This document shows positions 4,498 to 8,845 of a stretch of 17,572 bases of DNA, one piece after another (position 1 is the first letter of the stretch; each line of letters begins with the position of its first letter). The notes below the pieces were generated by a model that made no database searches, had not been told where the DNA came from, and saw nothing but the letters and a program-made list of their open reading frames with translations. Source of the DNA: Candidatus Roizmanbacteria bacterium CG06_land_8_20_14_3_00_34_14. GTDB taxonomy: Bacteria > Patescibacteriota > Microgenomatia > UBA1406 > GWC2-37-13. The position numbers and the translations under genes were made by a program. The stretch covers positions 2,824 through 20,395 of the forward strand of contig PEVZ01000052.1 in the NCBI GenBank assembly GCA_002779665.1. Direction: 5' to 3'.

Positions 4498-4929
4498 ATG
4501 AAAAAACTTTTAATTATTTTGTTTTTCCTAATAATCGTTATTTTTATCGTGACTATTTATTTCCCAAAAAATTTAAAAAATAATTCCAATCAACAATTAA
4601 CAAATGTTCCAACTGATAAAATTTCACAGACAAGTTTTCCACCTATTCTTGGTATTCATTACAAAATGATCGATAGTCAGACAGCTACGCAAAATAAATT
4701 AGTTGAGGGAGCCTATATTACTCAGGTTATTAAAGATTCTCCAGCCGCTCAAGCCAATCTTCAGGAAGAGGATATAATTACCGAAATCGATGGACGCGAA
4801 ATTTCCAAGCTTGATAAACAGTCTATTTATAACTTAATTTCAGCCTTGAAACCCGGCTCTCAGGTTAATCTATTAATATGGAGAAATAATATAATCAAAT
4901 CCTTCTTAGTCAATCTCAAATATAAATAA
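4498..4929 (+). CDS. Membrane-anchored single-PDZ protein
   Basis: This 143-residue protein has an N-terminal hydrophobic helix (about residues 3-22) followed by a polar linker and one PDZ domain of the DegP/HtrA type (about 50-140: ILGIHYKMI, GAYITQVIKDSPAAQANLQEEDIITEIDGREI, then a helix and LKPGSQVNLLIWR). No protease domain is attached. It starts 2 nt after the C-terminal protease stop and is surely cotranscribed. PDZ domains bind C-terminal peptides, so it may present or tether substrates for the neighbouring protease; this is inference from the pairing. There is no sign of truncation of a longer HtrA gene: the start and signal anchor are intact. Confidence 0.85.
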   Translation: MKKLLIILFFLIIVIFIVTIYFPKNLKNNSNQQLTNVPTDKISQTSFPPILGIHYKMIDSQTATQNKLVEGAYITQVIKDSPAAQANLQEEDIITEIDGREISKLDKQSIYNLISALKPGSQVNLLIWRNNIIKSFLVNLKYK

Positions 4930-4956
4930 TCAAATTAAAACAGTTTATTTTCCTCA

Positions 4957-4986
4957 ATGTTACACCATAATATTACGGTGTAACAT
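4957..4986. promoter_or_regulatory. Palindromic operator candidate 1
   Basis: Ten-base arms ATGTTACACC and GGTGTAACAT flank ATAATATTAC. The centre TAATATTA and the 30-bp span match the palindromes at 5102-5131 and 5576-5605, while the arm sequence differs. It is about 145 bp (centre to centre) upstream of the palindrome at the regulator start. No T-run follows, so it is not a terminator. Confidence 0.65.
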
Positions 4987-5073: not shown

Positions 5074-5102
5074 TTGTAGGTTATAAGCGGTAGACATATA
5101 AA
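5074..5102 (+). promoter_or_regulatory. Promoter of the TrpR-like regulator
   Basis: TTGTAG (5074-5079), 17 bp, then TATAAA (5097-5102). The predicted start is about 5109, inside the palindrome at 5102-5131, so a bound regulator would block this promoter. The remaining spacer 4987-5073 is AT-rich and shows nothing I can name. Confidence 0.5.
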
Positions 5103-5131
5103 TACTACTGTGTAATATTACGAAGTAGTAT
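5102..5131. promoter_or_regulatory. Palindromic operator candidate 2, covering the regulator start
   Basis: ATACTACT (5102-5109) and AGTAGTAT (5124-5131) are inverted arms around GTGTAATATTACGA, again centred on TAATATTA. The right arm contains the first two bases of the regulator's ATG at 5130, and the left arm starts at the last base of the -10 box. The geometry suits autorepression. Confidence 0.75.
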
Positions 5132-5567
5132 GATTAGACTTTCATATTTAAAAATAAAAGAGGAAGATTACAATAAAATATTTTCAATATTTTATAAAGT
5201 AATTGGAGAAACTGAGAACAAAGACGAATTTAATCGTATTTTAATTGATTTATTAACACCCGCAGAACGAATTATGCTAATTAAACGCATCGCAGTTATT
5301 TATTTACTTTTGAAGGATATTGATTATTTGACAATTTGTAGGGTTTTAAAAGTATCTAATGGAACTGTTAGTAAATATCGGCTTTTAATGGAGGATAGTA
5401 AAGGTATTGTTCCAGTAATAAAAAAAATGATTAAGAACGAAAAAATATGGTTATTTTTTGAGGAAATATTTAGTGAGATCTTTTATCCAGGTCTACCTGG
5501 AATTAGTTGGACGGCCGCATGGGAAATGAGAAACAAATTAGAAAATAAAAAGGAAAGGGGGTTGTAA
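5130..5567 (+). CDS. TrpR/YerC-family transcriptional regulator
   Basis: The 145-residue protein contains the Trp-repressor-type domain at about residues 30-100: DLLTPAERIMLIKRIAVIYLLL followed by the helix-turn-helix DYLTICRVLKVSNGTVSKYR. This matches the layout of TrpR and its Gram-positive relative YerC/YecD. The C-terminal 45 residues (KNEKIWLFFEEIFSEIF onward) extend beyond TrpR itself. The family binds palindromic operators as a dimer, often with an amino-acid corepressor. Its gene is flanked by matching palindromes, one over its own start and one before the histidine leader/CntK-like/hisS transcript, so histidine or His-tRNA metabolism is the likely target; this is inferred from position and agrees with my recollection that YerC-type regulators (HisR) were linked to histidine genes in Firmicutes. 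The effector is unknown. Confidence 0.85.
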   Translation: MIRLSYLKIKEEDYNKIFSIFYKVIGETENKDEFNRILIDLLTPAERIMLIKRIAVIYLLLKDIDYLTICRVLKVSNGTVSKYRLLMEDSKGIVPVIKKMIKNEKIWLFFEEIFSEIFYPGLPGISWTAAWEMRNKLENKKERGL

Positions 5568-5573
5568 AATTTT

Positions 5574-5607
5574 AAATACTACTCCCTAATATTACGGAGT
5601 AGTATTT
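5574..5607. promoter_or_regulatory. Palindromic operator candidate 3, upstream of the His leader
   Basis: Twelve-base arms (AAATACTACTCC at 5574-5585 and its exact complement at 5596-5607) surround CTAATATTAC; one more outer pair (5573/5608) also matches. The inner 30 bp share ATACTACT, TAATATTACG and AGTAGTAT with operator 2. Its centre is about 60 bp upstream of the predicted leader transcription start. No T-run follows. Confidence 0.75.
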
Positions 5608-5634
5608 ACTTTAAATCAAATTTAACCAAGTAAA

Positions 5635-5643
5635 TGGTATAAT
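5635..5643 (+). promoter_or_regulatory. Extended -10 promoter of the His leader transcript
   Basis: TGG directly precedes a perfect TATAAT (5638-5643), an extended -10 promoter. Six bases later is the ATG of the leader peptide, so the predicted first transcribed base is the A of that ATG. No good -35 hexamer is present at the expected place (5615-5620), which would fit dependence on an upstream activator. Confidence 0.65.
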
Positions 5644-5649
5644 ATTACT

Positions 5650-5694
5650 ATGAAAATAAATGCTTTGAAAAATTTACATCATCACCCGGCGTAA
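5650..5694 (+). CDS. Histidine leader peptide (attenuator)
   Basis: A 14-codon frame encodes MKINALKNLHHHPA followed by TAA. Three His codons in a row (CAT CAT CAC, 5677-5685) lie near the end, and the stop codon directly abuts the GGCGGG segment (5695-5700) that takes part in alternative RNA pairing. The ATG is 6 nt after a TATAAT, so the message is probably leaderless and translated as soon as it emerges. Known his operon leaders of enteric bacteria use the same device: a ribosome slowed at His codons when charged tRNA-His is scarce. The gene is too short for routine annotation. Its meaning rests on three features agreeing: promoter position, His codons, and the attenuator fold that follows. 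Confidence 0.82.
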   Translation: MKINALKNLHHHPA

Positions 5695-5745
5695 GGCGGG
5701 AGGTGATTCTTTTCTAAAAAAGCAACTTACCCGCCCACAGGCGGG
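5681..5745 (+). promoter_or_regulatory. His attenuator: mutually exclusive RNA hairpins
   Basis: Segment 1 (ATCACCC, 5681-5687) overlaps the second and third His codons and pairs with GGGAGGTGAT (5698-5707, one bulged A). Segment 2 (GGCGGG, 5695-5700) can instead pair with segment 3 (CCCGCC, 5730-5735). Segment 3 also pairs with segment 4 (GGCGGG, 5740-5745) in the terminator. A ribosome paused at His codons would cover segment 1 and free segment 2, favouring the 2:3 antiterminator; one that reaches the stop codon would cover segment 2 and let 3:4 form. The antiterminator is six GC-rich pairs and the alternative folds are seen directly; the switching is inferred. Confidence 0.8.
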
Positions 5746-5754
5746 ATTTTTTTT
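5730..5754 (+). terminator. Intrinsic terminator of the His attenuator
   Basis: CCCGCC, a CACA loop and GGCGGG form a six-pair all-GC hairpin followed by A and eight T residues (5747-5754). It lies about 130 nt upstream of the CntK-like gene, so it must be bypassed for expression of that gene from the leader promoter. Confidence 0.9.
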
Positions 5755-5755
5755 A

Positions 5756-5860
5756 GGGTCTGTTCCCGACTATGTAGGGATTACGGACCCTGATCCTTCC
5801 GAAGTGAAGTTTTGACTGCGTGGCTGTAAGCCTCGAGTCGAACCTGAACGGAGGAGGATT
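5756..5860 (+). ncRNA. Structured 5' untranslated RNA element of unknown class
   Basis: Directly after the terminator T-run a hairpin can form: GGGTCTG (5756-5762) with CGGACCC (5784-5790), with an inner TCCC/GGGA. A second domain closes by ATCCT-TCCG (5793-5801) with CGGA-GG-AGGAT (5849-5859) and contains TTTGACT/AGTCGAA (5811-5817 with 5836-5842) capped by GGCT-GTA-AGCC (5822-5832). The purine-rich GGAGGAGG (5850-5857) is partly buried in the closing stem, but it is 28 nt before the next ATG, too far for an ordinary Shine-Dalgarno. It is notably richer in GC than its surroundings. I recognise no T-box, riboswitch, tRNA or tmRNA consensus. It could be a regulatory leader or a dispersed palindromic repeat. 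Confidence 0.45.
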
Positions 5861-5885
5861 GGTTACAAATTAAAATATTTAAACT

Positions 5886-6713
5886 ATGATTACAAAAATT
5901 AAAAAGCTTTACATTTGTTACCCAAGCGGTAACATTAACGCGATAGTTGAGGATAATATTCCAAAACGAGACTATTCTTCTGTAGCAGAAAGAATTATAA
6001 ATACATATAACAAAAATAAACCTGTTGAAGATCAGGTCGAGCAAGTTGCTTTTATTGATAAACCAACCAATAAAAAAGCTATCTCATCTTTGTCATTGTC
6101 CGGTAATGAGTTTTCCGGAAATGCTGTTTTATGTCTTGGAACTTTAAAACTTAAGAACAAAAAAGAAGGTAAATTTCAAATATCAGGCTCAAAACAGATT
6201 TTAAAAATCTTTAAAGATGATAATGGTTTTATTAATGGTAAAATGCCAATGTTTGAATTCGAAGGAAAAATCAATCAAACTAAAGAAGGTTATCAAATTA
6301 TTCCTTTGCAAGGAATAACTCAAATTTTAGTTTTTAAAAACTTCGATAAAAACGATTTGTGGTTAAAAAATGAAGCTCAAAAAATAATTAAAAATAACGG
6401 TTTAGAAAAATCATTAGCTGTCGTCATCGACTTTATAAACAAAGAGAATAATATTTTTAAAATAAAACCATACGTATATTTTAGAAAGGGATTAGTTTAT
6501 GAATTACTTCGAGAAACTGCCTGTGGAAGTGCCACAACAGCCATAGGAATTTATTTATCGTTCTTAACAAATAAATCTATTCAGTATCAGAAAGTTGTCC
6601 AACCTAGCGGAGATTCTTTATATATTTCAGTAGGAAAAATTAATAATCAATTTGAATCATATTTATCGGGTAAAGTTAAAATTTTATACCAAGGACCGTT
6701 TGATTTAAATTAA
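5886..6713 (+). CDS. CntK-like histidine racemase / DapF-fold epimerase homolog
   Basis: The 275-residue protein resembles the cofactor-independent two-base epimerases of the DapF fold, most closely the Staphylococcus histidine racemase CntK as I recall its sequence. Shared landmarks are YPSGNINAIV at 12-21 (CntK: YNPSGN), VEQVAFID, SGNEFSGNA at 72-80 (CntK: SGNEFCGNA), ACGSATTAIG at 212-221 (CntK: SCGSGTASIG), and VVQPSGDSLYISV near the end. The second catalytic Cys is present (Cys213) but the first is replaced by Ser77 (codon TCC at 6114-6116). Diaminopimelate epimerase itself is less likely. The gene follows a histidine attenuator and precedes hisS, which independently favours a histidine substrate. 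It may interconvert D- and L-histidine, perhaps as salvage. The family is likely; the reaction is unproven. Confidence 0.75.
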   Translation: MITKIKKLYICYPSGNINAIVEDNIPKRDYSSVAERIINTYNKNKPVEDQVEQVAFIDKPTNKKAISSLSLSGNEFSGNAVLCLGTLKLKNKKEGKFQISGSKQILKIFKDDNGFINGKMPMFEFEGKINQTKEGYQIIPLQGITQILVFKNFDKNDLWLKNEAQKIIKNNGLEKSLAVVIDFINKENNIFKIKPYVYFRKGLVYELLRETACGSATTAIGIYLSFLTNKSIQYQKVVQPSGDSLYISVGKINNQFESYLSGKVKILYQGPFDLN

Positions 6714-6733
6714 TTGTTATAAATTTGTATAAT
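6705..6733 (+). promoter_or_regulatory. Internal promoter of hisS
   Basis: A perfect TATAAT (6728-6733) lies exactly 6 nt before the hisS ATG at 6740; TTAAAT at 6705-6710 is a weak -35 with 17-bp spacing. hisS can therefore probably be made as a leaderless mRNA even when the attenuator terminates. Confidence 0.6.
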
Positions 6734-6739
6734 ACAAAT

Positions 6740-8056
6740 ATGGTAAACAAAATAAAGGTTCAAAAATTAGCCGGTTTCAGAGATTATTTTGCTGAAGATG
6801 TAAAAGTTAGAGAGCATGTCATCAATATTTTTAAAAAAGTATTTGAAAAATATGGTTATGAGCCATTGGAAACCCCTGCTCTTGAAAATAGTAATATATT
6901 TGTTGGCGAATTGGGTGATGAGGCGGAGAAATTATTCTACAAATTTAAAGATAACGGTGGGCGAGACGTGATGCTTAAATATGATGTTATGACACCAATG
7001 TGTAGAGTCGTTGCTGAGAATATAAATAATATAATTTTTCCATATAAAAGATATCAAATCCAAAGCGTTTGGAGAAGCGAAAAACCACAGAAGGGTCGAT
7101 TCAGAGAATTTACCCAATGTGATGCTGATACGATTGGAAGTAGCTCAGTTATTTGTGACGCAGAGTTCATCCAAATGGGCATTGAAGCTCTGACAAATAT
7201 AGGATTTAAGGAATTTCGGGTAAATATCAATAATAGAAAATTACTCAGTGGAATTATCCAGTTTGCCGGTGCGACTGAAAAGGAATTTATCCTTATTTGT
7301 ATCTCGATTGACAAATTGCCAAAAATAGGGAGAGATAATGTCAAAAAAGAATTAATTGAAAAAAGGAAGATTAGCTCTGAAGTAGCCGAAAAAATTTTGG
7401 ACGTTATTACGTTAACTGGCGAGACTAATGAATTGTTAGAAAAATTAAAAAAACAACTTAACAACATCCCAATTGCCATGGAGGCAATAGATGAACTTGA
7501 AACGATATTTAACTATTTTAAAACCATAAAGCTTAATGAAAAATTTTATCGATTCACTCCTTTCATAGCCCGAGGCCTTGCTTATTACACCGGACCGGTC
7601 TGGGAATTTGAAATTTTAGAGGGTGAGGTCGGTTCGGTTGCCGGTTGTGGCCGATATGATAATATAATCGGTAAGTTTGCCGGAAGAGAAATTGCTGCCA
7701 CAGGTGGGTCTTTTGGAATAGAGAGATTAGTTGAAGTAATTAAATCACGAAAGATGATTAATTTTTCTGCAAATTCAGCTAAGTCCTTAGTAACCGTATT
7801 TAATACAGATCTTTTTAATAATTCTTTAATCATCGCCGATCAATTGCGAAAAAATAATATCTCTACAATTCTTTATCCTGTCCCAACAGAAAGGTTAGAC
7901 AAACAACTAAAGTACGCTAATAAAAAAAATATTCCCTACGTGATTATCATTGGGCCGGAGGAAGTCGCTAATAAAACCGTCGTTTTGAAAGATATGAAGA
8001 CGGGAGAACAAAAGAAATTGACTGTTGAAGAGGTTATTGATCAACTAAGCCTATAA
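6740..8056 (+). CDS. hisS: Histidine-tRNA ligase
   Basis: The 438-residue class II synthetase charges tRNA-His. Visible landmarks are LAGFRDYFAEDVKVRE at the start, motif 1 around KYGYEPLETPALE, motif 2 with WRSEKPQKGRFREFTQCDADTIG, the histidine-specific RGLAYYTGPVWEFE (Arg278, usual form RGLDYYTG), the GCGRYDNIIGKF segment, motif 3 GGSFGIERL, and a C-terminal anticodon-binding domain (VTVFNTDLFNNSLIIADQLRKN to the end). The ATG at 6740 is chosen over an in-frame TTG at 6725 because that TTG overlaps the -10 box and the N-terminus then fits the family. It follows the CntK-like gene by 26 nt, so read-through from the His leader should also express it. Length is normal. Confidence 0.96.
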   Translation: MVNKIKVQKLAGFRDYFAEDVKVREHVINIFKKVFEKYGYEPLETPALENSNIFVGELGDEAEKLFYKFKDNGGRDVMLKYDVMTPMCRVVAENINNIIFPYKRYQIQSVWRSEKPQKGRFREFTQCDADTIGSSSVICDAEFIQMGIEALTNIGFKEFRVNINNRKLLSGIIQFAGATEKEFILICISIDKLPKIGRDNVKKELIEKRKISSEVAEKILDVITLTGETNELLEKLKKQLNNIPIAMEAIDELETIFNYFKTIKLNEKFYRFTPFIARGLAYYTGPVWEFEILEGEVGSVAGCGRYDNIIGKFAGREIAATGGSFGIERLVEVIKSRKMINFSANSAKSLVTVFNTDLFNNSLIIADQLRKNNISTILYPVPTERLDKQLKYANKKNIPYVIIIGPEEVANKTVVLKDMKTGEQKKLTVEEVIDQLSL

Positions 8057-8152: not shown

Positions 8153-8845
8153 ATGCAAATAAATCCCAACATCGCCATTATCGAAGCCTTGCCCGGAGTC
8201 GGAGGAGATGAGTCCAAGCTCTGGATGGAGGAATTACTTGAATCATACTTATTGTTTGCTCAAAAAAAAGGATTTAAAAAATCTAATCTTGATGAAAAAA
8301 CAATTCAAATCAATGGACCGGGCGCTTTTCAAATGTTTAAAAATGAAACTGGAGTCCATCGAGTCCAGCGAATTCCTGACACCGAGAGAAAAGGGAGGAT
8401 ACATACTTCAACTTGTATTATGGTCGTTCTTCCCCAAATTATTCAGTCTGACACTCGAACAAATCCAAGTGATCTTGATTGGCAATTTTATAGATCGGGT
8501 GGGCACGGAGGACAAAATGTCAATAAAGTTTCTACCGCTGTTCGTTTAATTCATAGGCCGACTGGAATCGTCGTTACAGCCAGCCGAGAAAGAGATCAGC
8601 AGGCTAATCGTAAAATTGCTTTAGATTTATTGAATGCCAAGCTTTATCAACTTGAGGAAGAAAAGAAAAAAGGAATGAGAAATTCATACGTGACAAATGT
8701 TGGGATAGGGGATCGGGCTGAAAAAATCCGCACTTATAATTTCCCGCAAAATCGTCTTACTGATCACCGAGTCGGCAAAAGCTTTCATAATCTTGAGGAT
8801 ATAATTTCCGAAGGCAAGTGGGATAAAGTTTTTGCTATCCAATGA
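8153..8845 (+). CDS. prfA: RF1-like class I release factor lacking domain 1
   Basis: At 230 residues this is far shorter than normal RF1 (about 360). The chain starts at the family's central part: IIEALPGVGGDESKLW corresponds to the RAGTGGDEAALF segment, and everything before it (domain 1) is absent. The codon-reading tripeptide position holds PDT (75-77, in HRVQRIPDTE), matching the RF1 PxT pattern for UAA/UAG rather than RF2 SPF. The catalytic GGQ is at 119-121 within SGGHGGQNVNK, and the conserved RTYNFPQNRLTDHR follows. The spacer upstream is repeat sequence with no trace of domain 1. RF-H-type rescue factors also lack domain 1, so the role (main RF1 or accessory factor) is open. The TGA stop overlaps the next gene's ATG. 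Confidence 0.8.
   Translation: MQINPNIAIIEALPGVGGDESKLWMEELLESYLLFAQKKGFKKSNLDEKTIQINGPGAFQMFKNETGVHRVQRIPDTERKGRIHTSTCIMVVLPQIIQSDTRTNPSDLDWQFYRSGGHGGQNVNKVSTAVRLIHRPTGIVVTASRERDQQANRKIALDLLNAKLYQLEEEKKKGMRNSYVTNVGIGDRAEKIRTYNFPQNRLTDHRVGKSFHNLEDIISEGKWDKVFAIQ

Follow-up and report, generated by a model that had tools for sequence, protein, structure and literature searches.

A putative histidine leader-peptide attenuator preceding a CntK-like gene and hisS in a Candidatus Roizmanbacteria genome

Organisation of the locus

The window analysed here is the whole stretch of 17,572 nucleotides taken from contig PEVZ01000052.1 of Candidatus Roizmanbacteria bacterium CG06_land_8_20_14_3_00_34_14, whose genome (G000) comprises 785 kb in 72 contigs and is 82.6% complete. 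It contains, in the 5' to 3' direction, a gene encoding a TrpR-like protein, a palindrome, an extended -10 box, a short leader open reading frame (ORF), the strands of a putative attenuator followed by eight T residues (T8), a structured block at 5753-5862, a gene encoding a CntK-like protein and hisS, the gene encoding histidyl-tRNA synthetase (HisRS). The leader and its attenuator strands are the subject of this work.

The extended -10 box TGGTATAAT occupies 5635..5643 on the forward strand, with TG at 5635-5636 and TATAAT at 5638-5643 (positions obtained by counting); the hexamer at 5638-5643 is absent from the output of the two-hexamer promoter scan. Six nucleotides later an ATG opens the leader peptide ORF MKINALKNLHHHPA (5650..5694, forward strand; peptides are given here up to their stop codon), which has 14 codons, with histidine codons at positions 10 to 12 (5677-5685) and the stop codon TAA at 5692-5694. 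Its histidine cluster is a feature kept in relatives. The stop codon abuts GGCGGG (5695-5700), and further downstream are found CCCGCC (5730-5735), a CACA loop, a second GGCGGG (5740-5745), a single A and T8 (5747-5754). The forward-strand hairpins predicted from these elements are a protector 1:2 (5678..5707, -15.7 kcal/mol), an antiterminator 2:3 (5695..5735, in which 5695-5704 pairs with 5725-5728 and 5730-5735, -16.5 kcal/mol) and an intrinsic terminator 3:4 with T8 (5730..5754, -12.2 kcal/mol). The terminator was found by folding and by the terminator scan, which gave 2 sites in the window with a shuffle mean of 0.3, and the genome as a whole contains the hairpin pattern CCCGCCNNNNGGCGGG twice.

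Downstream on the same strand lie the gene for the CntK-like protein of the DapF superfamily (275 aa, 5886..6713) and hisS (6740..8056), the latter matching TIGR00442 with 379.9 bits against a cut-off of 286.75 when scanned from 6743. An earlier note on this DNA, made from its letters alone, had described the -10 box, the spacing to the ATG, the 14-codon histidine frame, the stop codon abutting GGCGGG, the competing strands, the eight T residues and the downstream hisS, and the reading of the sequence and the TIGR00442 match bear out all of these.

Conservation of the leader and terminator

The CntK-like gene was found in 10 of 72 family genomes, in 28 of 373 genomes drawn from the class and in 9 of 379 drawn from the phylum, three of which were already in the class set. 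Two congeneric species have a leader directly before the CntK-like gene and hisS, namely MKINISLKSHHHLP at L011 and L013 (one species, L011 being a Candidatus Roizmanbacteria genome) and MKINIIANSHHHLLFGGR at L014. In both species the frame and the histidine codons are kept, the hairpin sequences have changed and the block 5753-5862 is missing.

A detector requiring a histidine cluster followed by a terminator was positive at 15 of 28 CntK-like loci, which represent 27 distinct species since L011 and L013 belong to one (partial matches L045-L048 and the duplicates L022-L026 and L028 were excluded), and at none of 560 dinucleotide shuffles. Among 400 background tiles a single one was positive, and this was the window itself. 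Moreover, L041 offers a further case of a leader with a terminator, lying outside the 450-nt limit of the detector. When leaders with a triplet of the same amino acid were counted at the 27 loci, histidine gave 10, valine 1 and the remaining 18 amino acids none. At three loci (L016, L021 and L035) the histidine codons of the attenuator coincide with the final codons of a TrpR-like gene, so that the 3' end of the regulator doubles as the leader.

Pairing and predicted switching of the attenuator strands

The pairing of the strands was evaluated in 26 leaders found by the detector, which had been picked by their histidine cluster and terminator and not by strand 2 (L029 yielded none). The complementarity of strand 2 to strand 3 exceeds that of shuffles, which for the pairing and switch tests preserve base composition only, at p<=0.05 in 23 of the 26 leaders and at p<=0.01 in 20, and strand 2 begins 9-12 nt past the last histidine codon in 19. 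When strand 3 was exchanged between leaders, the total pairing score fell from 450.5 to 341.5 on average (sd 17.1), and none of 5000 permutations reached 450.5. Strand 3 itself varies among the leaders (CCCGCC, CCCTCC, AACCGCC, ACCCCGC, ACCAGCC and others) with the 2:3 pairing retained, and therefore these are compensating changes. The proposal of the earlier note that this is a leader-peptide attenuator is thus strengthened, because relatives retain the frame and histidine codons while the hairpin strands change together. Of the stems it had wished to see compared, the 2:3 pairing behaves as proposed, with compensating changes and kept histidine codons, whereas the protector 1:2 is strong in the window and not general among other leaders.

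A GC-rich hairpin followed by T8 suffices as a terminator, and the structure could therefore be a plain terminator of an upstream transcript placed beside a histidine-rich frame by chance. This explanation is barely credible against the 0 positives among 560 shuffles, the excess of histidine triplets (10 of 27 loci compared with 0-1 for other amino acids) and the recurrent phasing and pairing.

Switching was modelled with an assumed ribosome footprint of 12 nt from the A-site codon, the RNA being free from 5689, 5692 and 5695 with the ribosome on His10, His11 and His12 of the window leader. In all of 26 leaders (L015 and L035 absent from the previous set, L055 and L111 added) strand 3 is predicted to be bound with the ribosome on the first histidine codon (0.56-1.0) and free with the ribosome at the stop codon (0-0.39). 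A further set of seven leaders, which includes L015 and L035, passed as well (7 of 7, against 71 of 350 shuffles), which brings the leaders modelled to 33 of 33; in the same analysis L029 lacked a terminator under the rule applied, and L175 could not be located by its start string. For the window, the probability of the antiterminator at equilibrium with strand 4 present is 0.91, 0.68 and 0.73 for RNA free from 5689, 5692 and 5695, and before strand 4 is synthesized it is 1.0 from all four starts considered (5689, 5692, 5695 and 5696). With the ribosome at the stop codon the terminator is predicted to form.

The translation start of the leaders was surveyed at 26 starts chosen by the analyst, leaders within TrpR-like genes being excluded. 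A -10-like hexamer ends 6-9 nt 5' of the start codon in 15 of them (13 being exact TATAAT), and none has a Shine-Dalgarno-like tetramer (GGAG, GAGG or AGGA) in the last 16 nt. From this spacing and from the absence of such tetramers, the leader mRNA is probably leaderless, with a transcript beginning at or near the AUG. Leaderless leader peptides exist elsewhere, for example in Corynebacterium.

Proposed mechanism and its strength

Taken together, the locus very probably holds a leader-peptide transcription attenuator that senses charged tRNA-His. Its parts, their phasing, their conservation with compensating change and the predicted switching were all computed. For the transcription start, ribosome stalling and termination in the cell, we infer the following course. 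A ribosome would load on the leader AUG, with which the transcript would begin or which would lie close to its 5' end. When His-tRNA is scarce the ribosome would stall at codons 10-12, strand 2 (5695-5704) would remain uncovered, and its pairing with strand 3 would block the terminator and allow the CntK-like gene and hisS to be transcribed. When His-tRNA is plentiful the ribosome would reach the stop codon and cover strand 2, and the 3:4 hairpin with T8 would terminate transcription.

Several results weigh against the attenuator as described. Leaders with an adjacent pair of the same amino acid are not peculiar to histidine at the 27 loci (His 14, Gly 8, Val 6, Leu 4, the rest 0-3), the pair detector being less specific, and 12 of the 27 distinct CntK-like loci have on their own strand no histidine leader with a terminator, by detector or by eye. 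A few of these 12 show other links to tRNA-His; L029 has a histidine-pair leader without a terminator and L027 a single histidine codon. Among genomes lacking the CntK-like gene a leader was found on hisS in only 9 of 49 related genomes (for example MKITNSKDIVHHHLPNGG), in a survey with a T rule looser than that of the CntK-like-locus detector and in which 4 of 60 hisS starts were not found, the other 12 of the 72 genomes (G001, G022, G023, G067 and eight with poor, partial or unlisted matches) lying outside the 60. The protector 1:2 of the window is good by energy, and yet 1:2 beats shuffles at p<=0.05 in just 8 of 26 leaders (window p 0.2). Without a ribosome strand 3 is bound with a probability below 0.5 in 8 of 26 leaders only, 1:2 being weak in most relatives. 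In addition, 345 of 1300 shuffles of the 26 leaders, about a quarter, pass the switch test as well. Finally, the equilibrium probability of the window antiterminator drops to 0.11 if the RNA is free from 5696 and to 0.02 from 5697, and the predicted outcome hinges on the assumed ribosome footprint because the antiterminator wins at equilibrium only with nucleotide 5695 free.

Other genes behind histidine leaders

The attenuator is not confined to the CntK-like gene. The earlier note had proposed it as a control of a CntK-like gene, and a leader is indeed present there, but leaders also occur on hisS alone, at hisD loci and at tRNA-His genes. Among the 72 family genomes hisD was found in 13, and at both of the loci fetched an HH leader lies upstream of hisD, at a distance of about 1 kb. 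It was found neither in G000 (82.6% complete) nor in the other nine family genomes bearing a CntK-like gene, in a search whose control recovered 13 of 14 (Bacillus subtilis being missed), so that misses are possible; with this reservation the result agrees with the earlier note, which had seen no histidine biosynthesis genes in the DNA. A mutual exclusion of hisD and the CntK-like gene was considered and not adopted, since the overlap of 0 between 13 and 10 of 72 genomes, with about 1.8 expected by the author's estimate, is not significant.

At L042 the order is a leader (MNTLMSTHHHHHQ), tRNA-His, a second histidine leader, the CntK-like gene and hisS, and at L032 a histidine leader, divergent from the CntK-like gene, precedes a tRNA-His gene. 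In a family survey of tRNA-His genes, which used 29 of 30 fetched loci, a leader was found at 2 of the 29 (L174, the same place as L138, and L175). At L042, L032, L174 and L175 the tRNA-His gene thus appears to be attenuated by its own charging. L141 was also examined as a histidine leader before tRNA-His and was not counted, ARAGORN finding no tRNA there and only the first bases resembling one. No tRNA-His gene was matched by BLAST in G000.

Some relatives may use another sensor. L033 has a T-box-like leader followed by tRNA-His and the CntK-like gene (RF00230, 35.9 bits, E 1.5e-6, under the gathering score of 93). By eye, stem I is very short in the T-box-like leaders of L033 and L031; its loop, GUCACGA, contains the specifier CAC, which together with a UGGG bulge fits tRNA-His. 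The leader of L031 is not listed by Rfam and is a call by eye only.

These occurrences suggest that the operon in the window is one branch of a histidine-shortage response, with hisS alone, hisD loci, tRNA-His and racemase units as the branches in relatives.

The CntK-like protein

On sequence similarity the product of 5886..6713 can be assigned to the CntK-like fold. It matches over nearly its whole length the Fusobacterium histidine racemase 9cr1 (E 3.5e-10) and CntK 6jiw (E 1.1e-8). The suggestion of a CntK-like racemase holds as far as a distant relationship to CntK is concerned (NF033599, 76.4 bits), but this score is far under the cut-off of 300 and a second histidine-racemase model gives 58.2 bits against a cut-off of 400. 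Moreover, the window protein has Ser77/Cys213 in place of the Cys/Cys pair, and in 23 of 23 homologues, the window's own included, the first catalytic position is Ser and the second Cys. This replacement weakens the racemase half of the interpretation. Changing Cys67 to Ser greatly lowers the activity of the Fusobacterium enzyme, for which PMC11602996 also describes the roles of the catalytic residues; in the related proline-racemase group, however, an enzyme that naturally has Ser93 and Cys255 works as an epimerase (PMC4113996). The window protein may thus be an active racemase or not.

The two types of the protein differ in their surroundings. In all 10 Ser-type loci hisS directly follows the CntK-like gene, compared with 7 of 24 Cys-type genes with hisS inside the fetched flanks (one of these, L086, by eye; the Cys-type assignment of L044 and L086 was also made by eye). 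In many Cys-type genes a GNAT domain is fused to the CntK-like part, and a gene for a VanX-like peptidase comes next. At L015, L016, L017, L019, L027, L029, L030 and L035 the CntK-like part and a GNAT acetyltransferase are in frame, followed by a VanX-like M15 peptidase (checked with Pfam for L016 only). On the tree, from which L044-L047 and L086 were left out, in which the Ser/Cys trait columns were retained and where L043 sits on a long branch, the Cys/Ser state needs two changes, either two gains or one gain with one loss.

It can be argued that the element is in essence a hisS attenuator and that the CntK-like gene, having lost the first catalytic Cys, is simply carried along or encodes something other than a racemase, such as a partner that binds histidine. 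The 9 of 49 genomes with a leader on hisS alone, the position of all 10 Ser-type genes directly before hisS and the strong loss of activity on Cys67 to Ser in the Fusobacterium enzyme (PMC11602996) all fit this explanation. Five genomes (G050, G070, G035, G037 and G069) do not, since they have the leader on a Cys-type CntK-like gene and hisS elsewhere without one; because the leader is there placed on the CntK-like gene and not on the distant hisS, the former is a target in its own right. An unrelated racemase that occupies the same slot and the active Ser93/Cys255 enzyme (PMC4113996) also speak against it. We regard the hisS explanation as a serious contender, somewhat short of probable.

A second racemase family beside hisS

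A gene of the Asp/Glu-racemase family was found directly before hisS in 4 of 61 hisS loci, many of which cover no more than about 0.9 kb of upstream sequence. The protein of L124 matches TIGR00035 (147.4 bits, cut-off 93.1) and PF01177 (123.3 bits), and the other three show 67, 63 and 33% identity to it. A histidine leader with a terminator lies ahead of the Asp/Glu-racemase gene and hisS in 3 of the 4 (L124, L055 and L111), the fourth, L114, being near a contig end. In addition, L124 has a TrpR-like gene upstream, as in the window. This recurrence favours a racemase role beside HisRS, with the substrate left unnamed, and an unrelated racemase at this position lends indirect support to D-histidine salvage as a possibility. 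However, hisD is present in G066 and G067, two of the four genomes, which counts against salvage as their sole source of histidine.

That the racemase-like product of the window enlarges the pool of L-His is the less certain half of the interpretation, and we would give it a little under an even chance. A broader scheme can be sketched, in which CPR (Candidate Phyla Radiation) bacteria without histidine biosynthesis run a histidine-shortage regulon of a racemase and HisRS, sometimes with tRNA-His, that turns D-His into L-His on demand. The D-His would be free or would come from D-amino-acid peptides through the VanX-like peptidase of the Cys-type units, two unrelated folds would have been recruited to one slot, the Ser/Cys form of the CntK-like protein would be an active epimerase, ribosomes would load on a 5'-terminal AUG and the leader would in some relatives be the last codons of the regulator. 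As a whole this scheme is speculative and rather improbable.

The TrpR-like regulator and other features of the window

Two features go beyond the earlier note: the structured block 5753-5862, between the terminator and the CntK-like gene, and a TrpR-like gene (5130-5567) with three palindromes just upstream of the attenuator. The gene (5130..5567, forward strand) encodes a DNA-binding protein of 145 aa that matches PF01371 with 33 bits (cut-off 27) and is a possible histidine repressor. The palindromes are candidate operators and lie at 4956..4986 (entries I4 and D1), at 5101..5131, overlapping the start of the TrpR-like gene (I3, D1 and D2), and at 5573..5608, immediately 5' of the attenuator promoter (I2, D1 and D2).

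With such a gene and three palindromes at the locus, the main control might be exerted by the TrpR-like protein on the palindromes between 4956 and 5608, with L-His as corepressor and the RNA part secondary. The E. coli trp operon combines a repressor and attenuation, so the two modes are compatible, and dual control by the TrpR-like protein and the attenuator is possible. The leader also occurs in L011, L018 and L020, whose flanks gave no TrpR-like gene. In L016, L021 and L039 the TrpR-like proteins encoded next to the CntK-like genes match TIGR02531 (YerC/YecD) with 82.8, 80.5 and 69.1 bits against a cut-off of 42.2, but the window protein gives no match to this model at E<=0.001. The YerC/YecD family is named HisR in Firmicutes, and that of R. 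gnavus requires L-His for DNA binding (PMC9413887). On balance, a control mainly by the TrpR-like protein seems unlikely to us, and attenuation by charged tRNA-His is kept as the principal mode.

The forward-strand block 5753..5862 belongs to a repeated structured element (model R1) apart from the attenuator. It gave 22 BLAST matches in 14 of 72 family genomes, and its model matches 46 of 281 class genomes, with at most 8 matches per genome. Among 17 copies, 14 of 29 predicted pairs show one or more both-sided changes. Copies are found after terminators or tRNAs and before purF-like, tRNA-His, pheA-like and other genes (names by eye), and some are antisense, upstream of genes (by eye). The block was considered as a part of the attenuator or as a T-box and rejected, being missing at the corresponding place in L011 and L014 and having no Rfam match at gathering. 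Covariation and wide distribution would suit a riboswitch controlling the CntK-like gene, but an element that does not precede this gene in L011 and L014, that sits before unrelated genes and tRNAs and that is sometimes antisense is highly improbable in such a role. One copy, at L125, is preceded by a leader with four Phe codons and a terminator (MANLSTWYCFFFFTRLGGLVDNEIKL) and followed by a prephenate-dehydratase-like gene (name by eye).

The gene at 4498-4929 keeps a signal-like start and a PDZ domain, and the protease domain of the co-located 383-aa gene of L011 (by eye) is missing. The region 8153-8845 encodes a release-factor-1-like protein of 230 aa that matches positions 106-334 of the 347 of the RF1 model, its N-terminal part being missing.

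Comparison with known systems

Comparison of about thirty genomes (32 by the author's tally) indicates that very reduced CPR genomes retain ribosome-sensing attenuation, with tRNA-charging genes, racemase genes and even tRNA genes among its targets. That hisS recurs, behind a histidine sensor, together with one or the other of two unrelated racemase families can be a clue to how these bacteria obtain L-histidine. In the open literature we found nothing on leader-peptide attenuation in Patescibacteria, on CPR T-box riboswitches, on leader-peptide attenuation of hisS or on a histidine racemase with histidyl-tRNA synthetase, subscription papers being mostly outside the scope of the search.

The enteric his leader (RF00514) resembles the window in its histidine codons within a short frame, in its mutually exclusive antiterminator and terminator and in a stop codon that lets the terminating ribosome mask strand 2. 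It differs in that the window has 3 histidine codons, a probably leaderless transcript, a racemase-like gene with hisS downstream and, in most relatives, a weak protector. The window leader gives no match to RF00514 at gathering or at E<=5; other Rfam matches in it (sX14, STnc240, anti-hemB, Phe_leader and GlsR26; E 0.02-4.2) are far under gathering and were not used. An attenuator on an aminoacyl-tRNA synthetase gene is found in E. coli pheST, which differs in sensing Phe, in being enteric and in having no racemase gene.

Firmicutes his biosynthesis operons are similar in having three to five consecutive histidine codons ahead of attenuator structures (PMC9413887). Their leaders are, however, on biosynthesis operons, and the main text of that paper makes no mention of Patescibacteria, hisS or a racemase. 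The S. aureus CntK and F. nucleatum HisR proteins are similar to the window protein over nearly its whole length, with the second Cys kept, but the first Cys is Ser in the window protein and its scores are under the cut-offs. Moreover, the window gene has hisS as its neighbour, in place of the staphylopine genes of the one and the surroundings of the gene in Fusobacterium (for the latter, PMC11602996). Finally, the T-box (RF00230), which is not present in the window, also reads tRNA charging, and at L033 a T-box-like leader lies before tRNA-His and the CntK-like gene.

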